From: Bacteroidales bacterium | Lineage (GTDB): Bacteria > Bacteroidota > Bacteroidia > Bacteroidales > Prolixibacteraceae | Reading direction: 5' to 3' | Length of the DNA stretch: 64,000 bases | Assembly: GCA_012729335.1 (NCBI GenBank) | Contig: JAAYDJ010000007.1 | Location: forward strand, 186,001 to 250,000 | Shown: in pieces, positions 28,720 to 33,533 of the stretch | How the letters are laid out: each line of letters begins with the position of its first letter | Position numbering within the stretch: position 1 is the first letter of the stretch | Notes under the pieces: model-generated | What the model was told of the DNA's origin: nothing | Seen by the model: only the letters and a program-made list of their open reading frames with translations | Database searches by the model: none | Translations under genes and position numbers: made by a program

Positions 28720-29232
28720 TCATTTATAGCCCAGTTTCTGCAAAACCTGGTCGCTCAGGTCAAATTTGGGATTGGTGACAAAAAGTGAGGTTCCCCCGGC
28801 CTTGTCAAAAATCACCGCATAAGCTCCCTCGTTGGCGATCTCCTCTACCGCGCTGAAAATGTCATCCTGCAGGGGTTTCACCAGGCTCTGCCGTTTCTTG
28901 AAAAGCTCTCCGCTGGGACCGAAATAGTCACGCTGCAACTCTTTATACTCTTTTTCCTTCGTGATGATCACATCTTCACGTTTACGCTTCATGTCTTCCG
29001 ACAACAGCACACTCTCTGCCTGGAAGTCCTGATACATCTTCTCGATGCTTGCATACATGGTCTCCAGCTCTTTCTGGTATTGTTTCGACATCTGGTCGAG
29101 CTGTTCCTGGGCGGCGTTGAAAGCCGGTATGTTCTTCAGGATGTACTCAGAATCGATGAAAGCAAATTTCTGGGCAAAGCCCGTCACGCCCAGTACGAGC
29201 ACCATGACCAGGGTCAGAATTGTCTTTTTCAT
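28720..29232 (-). CDS. OmpH/Skp-family periplasmic chaperone (first copy)
   Basis: A 170-residue protein: signal peptide MKKTILTLVMVLVLGVTGFAQ, then KFAFIDSEYILKNIP, a family hallmark, and a charged coiled coil (about residues 40-115). The C-terminal part (AYAVIFDKAGG) forms the trimer base. It works as a Skp-like holdase for BamA substrates. It lies 60 bases downstream of bamA on the same strand and 47 bases upstream of the second copy. The two copies are clearly diverged, so they may have split roles. Confidence 0.88.
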   Translation of the reverse strand: MKKTILTLVMVLVLGVTGFAQKFAFIDSEYILKNIPAFNAAQEQLDQMSKQYQKELETMYASIEKMYQDFQAESVLLSEDMKRKREDVIITKEKEYKELQRDYFGPSGELFKKRQSLVKPLQDDIFSAVEEIANEGAYAVIFDKAGGTSLFVTNPKFDLSDQVLQKLGYK

Positions 29233-29292
29233 GTCTTGTGTTTTTATGATTCCGGAATATCATTTACAAATAGTGCGCCAAACTTGTAACGA

Positions 29293-32013
29293 TCAGAACT
29301 GCTGTCCGATGACGAAGTGGAAATTGCTACCGCTGGCATCGCCCGACCAGGGGATCCTGTCGAAACCATAGCCCCAGTCGATCCCCATCAGCCCGAACAT
29401 CGGAAGGTAGATTCGCACGCCGGCACCCGCCGACCTGTAAAGCTTGAAGGGATTGTAATCACGGAAGAGGTCGTTGGTATTCCCGGCTTCCAGGAAGGTC
29501 AATGCGTATATGGTGGCGCTGGGCTTGAGGGTCACCGGGTAGCGGAGCTCCATCGTAAACTTGGAATACATCTTGGATCCGTTACGCCGGTAACTCAGGC
29601 TGTAATCTTTGTACCCCCTGAGCGAAACATAATCGGTTCCGTAATAGCTGTACCCCGACATTCCCGATCCCCCCACGATAAATCCTTCGAAGGGAGACTG
29701 GCGGTTTTCATTGAAATATCCCAGGAATCCCAGTTCGAAAGCCGTACGGAGCACCAGATTGGTGTTGCGGCTGAGGGCATTGTACGATTGTCCTTTGAAG
29801 AGCCATTTGTGGTACTCGATCCACCGGTATTTATCGGCATTGGAGACGTTCGGATCGCTCCAGTCGGTCTTGGAGAACCAGGAGTAGGGGGGGGTGAACT
29901 TCAGGGTAAGTGAAAAAGCCGACCCTTTTCTGGAGTATAGAGGATTATCGACCGAGTTCCGGCCGATGACCGTCTTGATGCTCAGGTTGTTGCTGGTCCC
30001 GTTCACATTTCCCTGTTCATCGGCCAGAAAGTCAAAATAGGCGGCCATGTTCTGAAGGCGGTAATGCTCAAAAGAGACCTCATGGGTAATCGTGAAAAAG
30101 TCATCGGGCCATTTGAGGCGGTACCCGTATCCGACTGACAAAGCCAGGGTTTCCCAGATTTCGTCATCGGTTTCGTCCTCATTCTCTGAGTCGTAATTGT
30201 ACTGGTAGGTGGGGTAATATCCGCCGTAACCGCCGTAGTAACTTCCGTAACCTCCATAGCCATAAGGCGAGTAACCGCCATACCCATAGGGGGAATATCC
30301 GCCGTATCCGTAGGGGGAATAGCCTCCATACCCGTAAGGGGAGTAGCCTCCGTACCCGTAGGGATTGTTGTAATAATTCTGGTAGTAGTTGTTGGCGCTG
30401 AAGTTGACCTTTGACCATGAAAAGGACATGGAGAAGGAGTTGGGTTTTTTCCCGCCCAGCCAGGGTTCGAAGAAGGAGAGGCTGGCGGTTTTATAATACT
30501 GGCCGCTGGTCTGGTAGCGGACGCTGAGGGTCTGGCCGTCGCCGCTGGGCAGCGGGCGCCAGGCCTCCCTGTTGAAGATGTTGCGGGCCGAGAAGTTGGC
30601 GAACTTCAACCCCACGGATCCCACGAACATGCCGGCGCCCCAGCCTCCTGACAGCTCGATCTGGTCGTTGGCTTTCTCCTCCAGCTTGTAGTTCACGTCG
30701 ACGGTACCGTCCTCAGGATGGGGCACCACATCAGGCACAATGGCCTCGGGATCGAAATGCCCCAGCTGCGCCAGCTCACGGATCGAACGGATGATGTTGT
30801 TCTTGCTGTATAGATCGCCCGGATAGGTCCGCAGCTCACGGCGGGCCACATGCTCATGGGTCTTGGTATTCCCGGCTATCCCGATCTTGTTGATGGTCGC
30901 CTGTTTCCCCTCCCAGATCCGCATCTCGAGGTCTATGCTGTCTTTTTCAATGTTCACTTCCACAGGCTCAATGTCGGAAAAGAGATATCCGTTGTCCTGG
31001 TAGGCAATGTTCAACACGGCGTCTTCATCCTCCGTCAACCGCTTGTTCAGCAGCTTCTGGTCAAAAACATCCCCCTTCTTGATCCCCAGGAAAGTGTTCA
31101 GATATTCCGCAGGATAGACCGTATTCCCCACCCAGCGGATATCGCGGAAATAATAACGGTCCCCTTCTTCCACCCAAATCTCCACGTTAACCCTGTTTTT
31201 CTTCCCGGAGGCATAGACCGAATCCCTGACGATCACGGCATCACGATACCCTTTCTGGTTATATTTCTTGACCAGATTCACCTTGTCCTCCCTGAACTTG
31301 TCCTCCAGGTATTTCTTGGTTCTGAAAAAGTTGGTCAGCTTTTTGGCGTTGGTTTTCTTCATGGCCCTTTCCAGCAGGGCTTCCTTGACCTCCTCGTTGC
31401 CGTGGATGATCACGTCCTGTACCTTTACCTTTTCCTTTTTATCGACATTGATGTCGAGAATGATGGTGTTGGCCTGGGCCGTGTCGTCACGCTGGATGAT
31501 GTTGACCTCGGTATTGAGAAATCCTTTCTCCAGAAAGATATTCCTGATCAGCCGCTGGGCATTGTTAATCTGGTTGTCGGTGACCTGGCTCCCCTTGAGC
31601 AGCAATACCTTGGCGGTAATGTCATCTCTTTCCGATTTGGTGATTCCCGAGTAGTTCACGTCGCCCAACCGGGGCCTTTCCTGCAGGTAAATGTCGATCC
31701 AGACATTGTCGCCCGCAATCCTGGAGGCGGTGATTTTCACGTCGGAGAAAAGGCCCTGCTGCCAGAGCTTTTTAATAGCCATGGTGACCTCCTCACCGGG
31801 AACATCGATCTCCTGTCCCATTGCAAGTCCCGACAACTGGATCAGCACATCGCGGTCGAGGTAACGGATCCCTGAAATTTCAATGCCGGCAATGGTCAGT
31901 TTTTTCGGGCTTGAATAGTAGACTGAAAACAGGGTGCTGTCGGCAACCTGTCCCCGCACTCCGGTGACACCCACCAATAAAAGGAAGAGTATGGGTAAAA
32001 CTTTCTTTCGCAT
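29293..32013 (-). CDS. bamA: Outer membrane protein assembly factor BamA
   Basis: A 906-residue Omp85 protein: signal peptide, then POTRA-type domains (about residues 30-440, with repeats such as ISGIRYLDRDVLI and GNTKTHEHVARREL), then a C-terminal beta-barrel ending in FHFVIGQQF. BamA folds and inserts outer-membrane barrels. The barrel carries an unusual insertion at about residues 545-615: five PYGYGGYS-like repeats followed by a Tyr/Gly run and an acidic stretch (SENEDETDDE). Counting strands as in E. coli BamA puts it in extracellular loop 3. Synonymous codons differ among repeats. It follows uppS by 15 bases. Confidence 0.93.
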   Translation of the reverse strand: MRKKVLPILFLLLVGVTGVRGQVADSTLFSVYYSSPKKLTIAGIEISGIRYLDRDVLIQLSGLAMGQEIDVPGEEVTMAIKKLWQQGLFSDVKITASRIAGDNVWIDIYLQERPRLGDVNYSGITKSERDDITAKVLLLKGSQVTDNQINNAQRLIRNIFLEKGFLNTEVNIIQRDDTAQANTIILDINVDKKEKVKVQDVIIHGNEEVKEALLERAMKKTNAKKLTNFFRTKKYLEDKFREDKVNLVKKYNQKGYRDAVIVRDSVYASGKKNRVNVEIWVEEGDRYYFRDIRWVGNTVYPAEYLNTFLGIKKGDVFDQKLLNKRLTEDEDAVLNIAYQDNGYLFSDIEPVEVNIEKDSIDLEMRIWEGKQATINKIGIAGNTKTHEHVARRELRTYPGDLYSKNNIIRSIRELAQLGHFDPEAIVPDVVPHPEDGTVDVNYKLEEKANDQIELSGGWGAGMFVGSVGLKFANFSARNIFNREAWRPLPSGDGQTLSVRYQTSGQYYKTASLSFFEPWLGGKKPNSFSMSFSWSKVNFSANNYYQNYYNNPYGYGGYSPYGYGGYSPYGYGGYSPYGYGGYSPYGYGGYGSYYGGYGGYYPTYQYNYDSENEDETDDEIWETLALSVGYGYRLKWPDDFFTITHEVSFEHYRLQNMAAYFDFLADEQGNVNGTSNNLSIKTVIGRNSVDNPLYSRKGSAFSLTLKFTPPYSWFSKTDWSDPNVSNADKYRWIEYHKWLFKGQSYNALSRNTNLVLRTAFELGFLGYFNENRQSPFEGFIVGGSGMSGYSYYGTDYVSLRGYKDYSLSYRRNGSKMYSKFTMELRYPVTLKPSATIYALTFLEAGNTNDLFRDYNPFKLYRSAGAGVRIYLPMFGLMGIDWGYGFDRIPWSGDASGSNFHFVIGQQF
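30244..30363 (-). repeat. Five 24-bp repeats encoding PYGYGGYS in BamA
   Basis: Five contiguous 24-base units encode PYGYGGYS (the last one PYGYGGYG). The protein is nearly identical from unit to unit, while third codon positions vary (for example ggg/gga/ggc and tac/tat). This implies age and protein-level constraint rather than a fresh slippage event. Confidence 0.95.
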
Positions 32014-32028
32014 TCTTTACAGATTTGT

Positions 32029-32772
32029 TTAACCGGCTATTTGTTCACTTGTCATTCCGAATCTTCTTTCGCGGCACTGGAAATCGGCGATGGCTTCGAA
32101 GAGGTCTTCCTTTCTGAAGTCGGGCCACAGTTTTTCCGTGAAGTAAAGTTCCGAATAGGCAATCTGCCACAGGAGGAAATTGCTGATGCGGTATTCCCCG
32201 CTGGTACGGATCAGCAGTTCCGGATCGGGAATGCCGGCGGTGGACAAGTATTTTTCAAATAGTTCGCTGTTGATGTCGGCCGGACTGATTTTACTGGCGC
32301 AGGCGTCGGCGGCGATTTTCCTGACGGCTTCGGTGATTTCCCACTTGGAACTGTAGCTCAGGGCCAGAACGACCTTCAGTCCGGTATTGTTTTTTAGTCT
32401 GTCGATGCAACTGTGGAGTTTCTCCTTGACATGGCCGGGGAGCATGCCGGTATCGCCGATGACCCTGACGGTGACGTTGTTCTTCATCAGATTATCGGTT
32501 TCGGCTTCGATGGCATATACCAGGAGGCCCATGAGGGCTTCGACCTCCTCCCTGGGGCGTGACCAGTTTTCGGTGGAAAAGGCGAACAGGGTCAGCCAGG
32601 AAATTCCTATTTCCCCGGCGCCTTCGACGGTCGAACGTACCGCCTCAATCCCCTGTTCGTGCCCGAAGGTCCGCGTGTTGCCATGACGTGCGGCCCACCG
32701 GCCGTTGCCATCCATAATGATGGCCACATGCCTGGGTATCTTGTTGATATTCAGTTTTTCTTTTATTGACAC
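32029..32772 (-). CDS. uppS: Isoprenyl transferase (undecaprenyl-PP synthase)
   Basis: A 247-residue cis-prenyltransferase that makes the undecaprenyl-PP carrier for peptidoglycan and O-antigen. The signature IIMDGNGRWA (catalytic Asp), RTFGHEQG, FAFSTENW and RTSGEYRISNFLLW blocks are all present. The start codon is GTG at 32772, only 5 bases after the stop of the DUF6089 gene, so translation is probably coupled. No in-frame ATG lies between that stop and the GTG. bamA follows after 15 bases. Confidence 0.93.
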   Translation of the reverse strand: MSIKEKLNINKIPRHVAIIMDGNGRWAARHGNTRTFGHEQGIEAVRSTVEGAGEIGISWLTLFAFSTENWSRPREEVEALMGLLVYAIEAETDNLMKNNVTVRVIGDTGMLPGHVKEKLHSCIDRLKNNTGLKVVLALSYSSKWEITEAVRKIAADACASKISPADINSELFEKYLSTAGIPDPELLIRTSGEYRISNFLLWQIAYSELYFTEKLWPDFRKEDLFEAIADFQCRERRFGMTSEQIAG

Positions 32773-32777
32773 TCTTG

Positions 32778-33533
32778 TTAATGTTTTGAATCGTACGCAG
32801 GGCAGGGCTTGCTTCCCATATAGATCTTATAGGTCAGGTGAATCCCCAGAAAGCCTATCCAGTCGTTGTTATGCATCTGATCTGTGAAGGAGACCCTGCG
32901 GGTCACCAGGGTGGGATCGGCCGGATCGTTGCGCTCCACATACCCCAGGGGATCGTCCAGGTCGTCAAGCCGGTCATCGAACAGCTTCCGCATCTGATAC
33001 TCCACACCCACGCCCATCTTTTTCCCCACATTGAACTTAAATCCCATGCCAAAGGGAAGGGTAGGGGTGATCACTGAACTGGCGTTCCCCAACCCGGCAT
33101 CGGGATGGGCAGGATTGACCACTGCTATTCCATCGGGCCGGGGTTCGTAATTGTAATACATCACCCCCACTCCTGCAGTCAGGTAACTGGTGAAGGAACT
33201 CTTTTTGTTGCCCAGCATGTACTTCAGGTAGTTGATCTCCACCTGCAGGGAGAGATCCTGCACCATCTTGTCAAATGCCCAGGATTGCCCTTCAATGGTT
33301 CCCTCTCCGGCAGCATTGCCGGTCAGAAACATCAGCCGTGCACTGGTACGTTGATGAAAATTGTACCTGAAATAGGCTCCCAGAACCGGAAAATTGGACG
33401 GGATCAGGGTATTCCCTCTGATATCTCCAAGGTACCCTGAGCCACCTCCCCACAACCCTATATCGGCCGTCACCTGTGAATGAACCATCCAGGCCGGAAT
33501 CAGCATCAATGCCAACAAAACTAATTTCCTCAT
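32778..33533 (-). CDS. porG: DUF6089 outer-membrane barrel protein, PorG-like
   Basis: A 251-residue protein with a signal peptide (MRKLVLLALMLIPAWMVHSQ) and an amphipathic beta-barrel body beginning DIGLWGGGSGYLGDI, typical of DUF6089. PorG of Porphyromonas gingivalis, a T9SS outer-membrane component that contacts the PorK/PorN ring, belongs to this family and sits in the same place just before uppS and bamA. The T9SS role is therefore inferred from family and synteny. The GH44-like protein in this window has a T9SS sorting domain, so the system should be present. It is first in the uppS-bamA operon. Confidence 0.8.
   Translation of the reverse strand: MRKLVLLALMLIPAWMVHSQVTADIGLWGGGSGYLGDIRGNTLIPSNFPVLGAYFRYNFHQRTSARLMFLTGNAAGEGTIEGQSWAFDKMVQDLSLQVEINYLKYMLGNKKSSFTSYLTAGVGVMYYNYEPRPDGIAVVNPAHPDAGLGNASSVITPTLPFGMGFKFNVGKKMGVGVEYQMRKLFDDRLDDLDDPLGYVERNDPADPTLVTRRVSFTDQMHNNDWIGFLGIHLTYKIYMGSKPCPAYDSKH

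Follow-up and report, generated by a model that had tools for sequence, protein, structure and literature searches.

The window, a 64,000-nucleotide stretch of a Prolixibacteraceae genome, carries on its reverse strand an open reading frame (29293 to 32013) that encodes a 906-residue BamA. The frame matches TIGR03303 with 307.8 bits (cut-off 297.15), and Pfam finds POTRA repeats (152.9 bits) followed by an Omp85 barrel (83 bits). A sequence search of the PDB returned as its best entries the BamA structures 9hj3 and 9hiv, both from B. thetaiotaomicron, together with 9n2d (F. johnsoniae) and 9hjm. In genome G006 the BamA is 88% identical to that of the window. The gene is preceded by uppS and a PorG-like gene and followed by two genes of the OmpH/Skp type. 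We note that the PorG-like gene (32778 to 33533, reverse strand), which lies two genes upstream of bamA and is of the type IX secretion kind, scores 129.7 bits against NF052316, barely below the cut-off of 130. The type IX secretion plug family is also found in the same genome; that this plug protein is BamH would be a guess.

An AlphaFold2 model of the protein was built with 32 BamA sequences, whose loops can hardly be aligned, and has a mean pLDDT of 75.4 and a pTM of 0.50. By our count of the listed model elements the barrel has 16 strands (residues 450 to 903). The fold is that of solved BamA proteins, Foldseek ranking Flavobacterium and Bacteroides BamA structures first (9n2f, E 1.2e-62; 9hiv, E 2.2e-59). 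A tyrosine- and glycine-rich insertion sits between barrel strand 5 (residues 526 to 537; 30403 to 30438, reverse strand) and strand 6 (residues 619 to 632; 30118 to 30159, reverse strand). With the POTRA domains in the periplasm, odd strands are followed by extracellular turns, and the insertion is therefore extracellular loop 3 (EL3), in agreement with the original prediction; nothing in the analysis places it in the periplasm. Our assignment of the extracellular side relies on strand parity and on published structures. The core of the loop (residues 540 to 611; 30181 to 30396, reverse strand) has pLDDT values of 25 to 34 in blocks of ten residues. Values below 50 are those expected of disorder, and the core is probably disordered, low confidence being in itself no proof of it.

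Within this core five octapeptide units (residues 551 to 590; 30244 to 30363, reverse strand) were recognised by codon comparison. Tandem Repeats Finder, run on 29000 to 32100, reports a single array at 30247 to 30360 with a period of 24, 4.8 copies and 82% matches. The repeat-bearing BamA loop predicted from the letters is confirmed. Four of the predicted five PYGYGGYS units are exact and the last reads PYGYGGYG. The predicted Tyr/Gly run SYYGGYGGYYPTYQYNY (residues 591 to 607; 30193 to 30243) and the acidic stretch DSENEDETDDE (residues 608 to 618; 30160 to 30192), which runs into strand 6, are both present on the same reverse strand. The predicted span of 30180 to 30372 was correctly placed, the low-confidence stretch being slightly longer (30181 to 30396). 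The EL3 region of 97 residues holds 27 tyrosines and is of low complexity; the rest of the protein is 5.6% tyrosine. The pattern TAYGGNTAYGGNGGNTAY has six matches in the 3.66-Mb genome, five of them inside the bamA repeat, and the reversed-pattern control has one. The sixth match to the YGYGGY pattern (G000:C35:111995-112012, locus L258) falls in a large, seemingly secreted protein in which PKD-like repeats can be made out by eye. It is near certain that the feature is the tyrosine-rich EL3 of a Bacteroidota-type BamA, expanded by octapeptides to about 72 to 80 residues.

The repeat units differ from one another in their codons but hardly in their residues. Across the first seven codons of the five units 7 of the 21 aligned nucleotide sites vary, every one of them a third position. 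At least nine changes are required, none of which alters a residue. Single changes made at random would be synonymous in a fraction of 0.26 of cases, and the product under this simple model is 6e-6. The exclusively synonymous variation in these seven codons indicates, as originally proposed, that the protein motif is under selection. The eighth codon, serine in units 1 to 4 and glycine in unit 5, does record a replacement. Between species pS is about 0.7 to 0.9, near saturation, and raw counts were used in place of dN/dS. The window and locus L005 (88% identical) differ in 67 loop codons by 33 synonymous and 13 replacement changes, with pN of 0.082 in the loop and 0.063 in the remaining barrel. 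The loops of L008 and L009 (58 codons) differ by 32 synonymous and 2 replacement changes, and those of L008 and L010 by 29 and 4. Loop pN exceeds barrel pN for the window and L006 (0.23 vs 0.11) and for L007 and L008 (0.20 vs 0.12), both among the six pairs compared, and for the additional pair L005 and L006 (0.27 vs 0.11); the repeat alignment is uncertain in these three.

Composition is far more constant than sequence. We defined a loop core by trimming 10 residues from the front and 20 from the back of the EL3 region, which gave 1711 residues from 36 members of the family. These comprise 596 tyrosines and 595 glycines (together 70%), 2 phenylalanines and no tryptophan, with valine, isoleucine, leucine and methionine contributing 15 in all. 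In the whole region 515 of 646 gaps between successive tyrosines are of 2 to 4 residues. Because phenylalanine is nearly missing and its codons are one base from those of tyrosine, selection appears to act on tyrosine itself. Seven loci of Prolixibacteraceae type (L035, L040, L044, L045, L051, L052 and L053) stand outside the composition table; all six of them that are in the alignment (L051 is not) exceed the loop threshold given below. Purifying selection maintains the low-complexity Tyr/Gly composition despite turnover of the repeat units.

The same loop was sought in related genomes, 60 of 61 of which (the window's own included) have a bamA match. By our threshold a loop is a region of at least 39 residues with at least 7 tyrosines and a Tyr+Gly+Asn+Ser content of at least 40%. 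It was found in all 36 readable Prolixibacteraceae among 37 genomes, thus in all 35 readable family members besides the window, and its loss from close relatives, which would have spoken for drift, is not seen. The gene of one of the 36 (L019) leaves the contig end after the loop; in the 37th genome (G024) bamA is broken at the loop by the contig end, the fragment (L142) being Tyr/Gly-rich. The family regions span 52 to 101 residues with 11 to 28 tyrosines. The repeat unit depends on the species. The window and G006 share PYGYGGYS, other members of the genus have GGY or PYGGYGGY in runs, elsewhere in the family the unit is GYGGG or GSGY, and several members lack a repeat altogether. Outside the family, the 24 genomes at order level comprise 4 with the loop, 18 with a short EL3, none of which exceeds the threshold, and 2 (G045 and G047) that were dropped as their barrels were not readable. 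L126 (genome G053) is counted with the short class: its EL3 region, 77 residues long, contains only 3 tyrosines and is another kind of insertion at this position.

Among a further 76 Bacteroidales rows (Bacteroides, Prevotella, Odoribacter and others) 73 pass, with a loop richer in asparagine; L037, L092 and L111 fall below the threshold and are absent from the tree. In these 76 rows the median region has 56 residues and 11 tyrosines (range 5 to 18); the family medians are 76 and 17. A phylum-wide draw of 128 genomes, the window's own included, gave a readable loop in 69 loci of 68 genomes. Loci of other orders have a short EL3, and the single locus above the threshold (L186) is borderline. 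L186 and L187 (genomes G133 and G078) belong to a distant family with its own small tyrosine patch in EL3, DYYYYDLYG, possibly an independent gain. Since the loop is missing from 18 of the 22 readable order-level genomes and from 68 of the 69 phylum loci, barrel insertion itself does not need it.

BamA trees were computed from 72 hand-picked rows, including 19 of the 36 family rows, with the EL3 columns removed. The second alignment omitted L051, L142, L143 and L144, as well as L004, L034 and L183, which are copies of the window's gene or of L005. The 37 loop rows, together with L131, which represents one loss, form a single clade with SH-aLRT values of 100 (LG+G4) and 99 (mixture model) in these quick trees, made without bootstrap and with an outgroup that does not fall on one side of a branch. 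The loop state changes three times on the tree, or twice without L186. Most simply, the loop would have been gained once, in an ancestor of the Prolixibacteraceae and the Bacteroidaceae-type lineages, and lost once. We favour common descent with the published loops, the tree rows being relatives of the published species only.

In the published Bacteroidota complexes BamG to BamK are extracellular, and EL3 of BamA from B. thetaiotaomicron and P. gingivalis (38 and 39 residues with 13 and 12 tyrosines, also enriched in glycine and asparagine) gives no cryo-EM density and probably projects into the extracellular lipoprotein dome; from its flexibility the authors infer that it does not bind other BAM subunits (PMC12578637, 2025). 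BamADGH is regarded as the core and BamH is reported to be universal in the phylum (PMC12611786).

Profile searches for BamH_bt, BamI, BamJ and BamK were run on the 61 genomes and 14 controls. BamI and BamK exceed 100 bits in five genomes, namely the four loop-bearing genomes at order level (G038, G055, G057 and G059) and G047, which has no readable BamA; BamH_bt exceeds 100 bits in the same four. All three models thus score above 100 bits in 4 of 4 readable order-level genomes with the loop and in 0 of 18 with a short EL3. The curated cut-off is passed by BamH_bt in no genome, by BamI in none and by BamK in two. Within the 37 family genomes these profiles, whose sensitivity is limited, gave no BamI or BamK match above 30 bits. 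Weak matches were seen to BamI in 5 family genomes (24.4 bits or less), to BamK in G006 (26.8 bits, covering no more than the model's first quarter) and to BamH_bt in 18 of 37 (49.3 bits or less). The window's own genome gave no BamH_bt match at E ≤ 0.001 and no match to BamI or BamK. Among the controls, Bacteroides ihuae was matched by BamI below the cut-off and missed by BamH_bt and BamK, so that absence from the family counts as weak evidence. The family has the loop without a detectable BamI or BamK, whose absence is no more than suggested. An obligate link between the loop and a BamI/BamK dome was rejected: the 37 family genomes deviate from it and the four positives are one clade, in a search of limited sensitivity. 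In the four positive genomes the BamI match lies some 1.6 to 1.7 kb upstream of the bamA match. In two Bacteroides-type loci (L043:2736-4223 and L070:2833-4209) a long lipoprotein-like frame lies directly upstream of uppS-bamA, in the place of the window's porG; it is perhaps BamI.

The BamJ model matches FKBP proteins in 60 of 61 genomes and 8 of 14 controls, E. coli among them. In the window's genome it matches, below cut-off, two tandem FKBP lipoproteins (G000:C16:2229-3044; L146:1216-2346), whose presumed lipid cysteine is followed by acidic residues. These are possible surface isomerases of a Prolixibacteraceae BAM. Against solved structures they recovered general FKBPs only, and no BAM entry was recognised among the matches listed (60 of 88; 29). 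We rejected a tie between the loop and these lipoproteins, relatives of which (E ≤ 1e-12) were found in 24 of the 37 genomes of the family and, at order level, in 13 of 18 loop-less genomes and 0 of 4 with the loop. A BamG candidate, a match at G000:C33:397905-398609 within a 512-residue frame (locus L150), shows a weak PorV-family match far under the cut-off; among solved structures it found none at E ≤ 0.001 and one unrelated entry (E 1.1) at E ≤ 10.

Conserved composition, free sequence, tyrosine as nearly the only aromatic residue, probable disorder and a site above the barrel together point to many weak contacts and not to a single fixed interface. We consequently prefer, at a probability of roughly 0.4, a reading in which the loop is a flexible tyrosine brush over the BamA pore that makes weak contacts with emerging clients. 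The disordered brush would lie over the outer mouth of the barrel, beneath the surface-lipoprotein canopy, where many weak aromatic and hydrogen-bond contacts could, for a short time during assembly, hold extracellular loops of newly made barrel proteins; the same contacts may hold unfolded parts of surface lipoproteins. Composition and spacing, a tyrosine every 2 to 4 residues, would matter and exact sequence would not, so that the repeat is able to change between species. A more far-reaching version, which we think improbable as a whole, holds that the inserter evolved, a single time, a low-complexity tether with tyrosine as its only aromatic residue, akin in principle to nuclear-pore FG repeats. 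This weakly cohesive brush would fill the extracellular BAM chamber and selectively admit or hold emerging loops and surface lipoproteins, and would have arisen before BamI and BamK joined and been tuned from an asparagine-rich to a glycine-rich form in Prolixibacteraceae.

As an alternative the loop would be a shield, an entropic brush keeping bulky or hostile agents such as lipopolysaccharide, bacteriocins, antibodies and phage proteins from the BamA seam and mouth. The original prediction had likewise named the exclusion of phage or antibodies, and also lipoprotein contact, either of which may apply. A long, mostly uncharged and probably disordered loop at the surface fits a shield, and a determinant of bacteriocin action, for bacteroidetocin A, has been published for the base of loop 3 (PMC8546649); at the site concerned all 36 family members have a residue other than Asp. 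That site, however, lies at the base and outside the repeat, a plain brush would need no tyrosine, as Gly, Ser or Asn should do, and the Bacteroides loop is probably already covered by the dome (PMC12578637); on balance we think shielding rather unlikely. Docking of the loop on one fixed canopy partner, for instance BamH or a peptidyl-prolyl isomerase at the surface, would explain why BamH_bt, BamI and BamK accompany the loop at order level (4/4 against 0/18). Those four genomes are one clade, though, and the family keeps its loop with no BamI or BamK match above 30 bits in any of 37 genomes, by models that also missed a named control. With FKBP lipoprotein relatives in 13 of 18 loop-less genomes and published maps showing no loop density (PMC12578637), a fixed partner is doubtful.

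In a loop that tolerates change and has no function, slippage of the Tyr/Gly repeat would give the variation in repeat number and unit seen between close species, and loop replacement does exceed barrel replacement in some pairs. It would not be expected to confine change in the first seven repeat codons to synonymous sites, to preserve the loop in all 35 readable family relatives, or to leave 1711 core residues almost free of Phe, Trp and aliphatics, and we regard drift as very improbable. Tyr/Gly repeats generally resemble those of adhesive proteins, and the original prediction had offered surface adhesion as one role. On an adhesin reading the repeats would attach the cell to surfaces or to other cells. 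This general resemblance is all that speaks for an adhesin and the analysis gave the role no support. BamA is an essential assembly machine (PMC8546649, PMC12578637) whose published loop probably lies under the surface-lipoprotein dome (both papers), which makes a role internal to BAM likelier than one facing the environment and an adhesin highly unlikely.

Surface lipoproteins and SusCD complexes are assembled on the outside of Bacteroidota cells, and it is in this setting that a tyrosine-rich BamA loop with neither density nor an assigned role matters. From the Prolixibacteraceae form it would seem that conservation bears on composition and on the spacing of tyrosines rather than on sequence, that the loop may function without BamI and BamK, and that it marks one clade.

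No published description of the glycine-rich, repeat-built EL3 of Prolixibacteraceae was found in the one literature collection searched. Nor do the portions covered of PMC12578637 and PMC8546649 describe this form, its length, the selection for tyrosine, its clade or its occurrence where BamI and BamK go undetected. The best fold match, BamA of Flavobacterium johnsoniae (PMC12611786; 9n2d-9n2f), belongs to a Bacteroidota BAM with an extracellular canopy; its extended loops, in the available text of that paper, are T1, L5 and L6. The same loop in B. vulgatus, eL3, is of low complexity, with 22 Tyr or Asn among its 44 residues, and its base lies at the membrane interface. Killing by bacteroidetocin A is tied to an Asp where the loop starts, and altering this Asp gave resistant Bacteroidales (PMC8546649, 2021). 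This Asp aligns with Phe-538 of the window's BamA (30400 to 30402). At this position 19 of the 36 members of the family have Tyr, 8 have Ser, 3 have Phe and 6 have another residue, which is never Asp; on the published correlation, insensitivity to bacteroidetocin A is therefore predicted. A close likeness is to EL3 of B. thetaiotaomicron and P. gingivalis. Both loops lie between strands 5 and 6, are rich in tyrosine and apparently lack a fixed structure, and relatives of those two species, which are not themselves tree rows, fall in the same loop-bearing BamA clade. Their complexes include BamI and BamK, which the models used did not find in Prolixibacteraceae. Unlike their loops of 38 and 39 residues, that of the window has about 72 to 80, is enriched mainly in glycine beside tyrosine and is built from octapeptide repeats. 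The tyrosine-rich EL3 is as a kind already published, and what is added here is its repeat-built, glycine-rich Prolixibacteraceae form.
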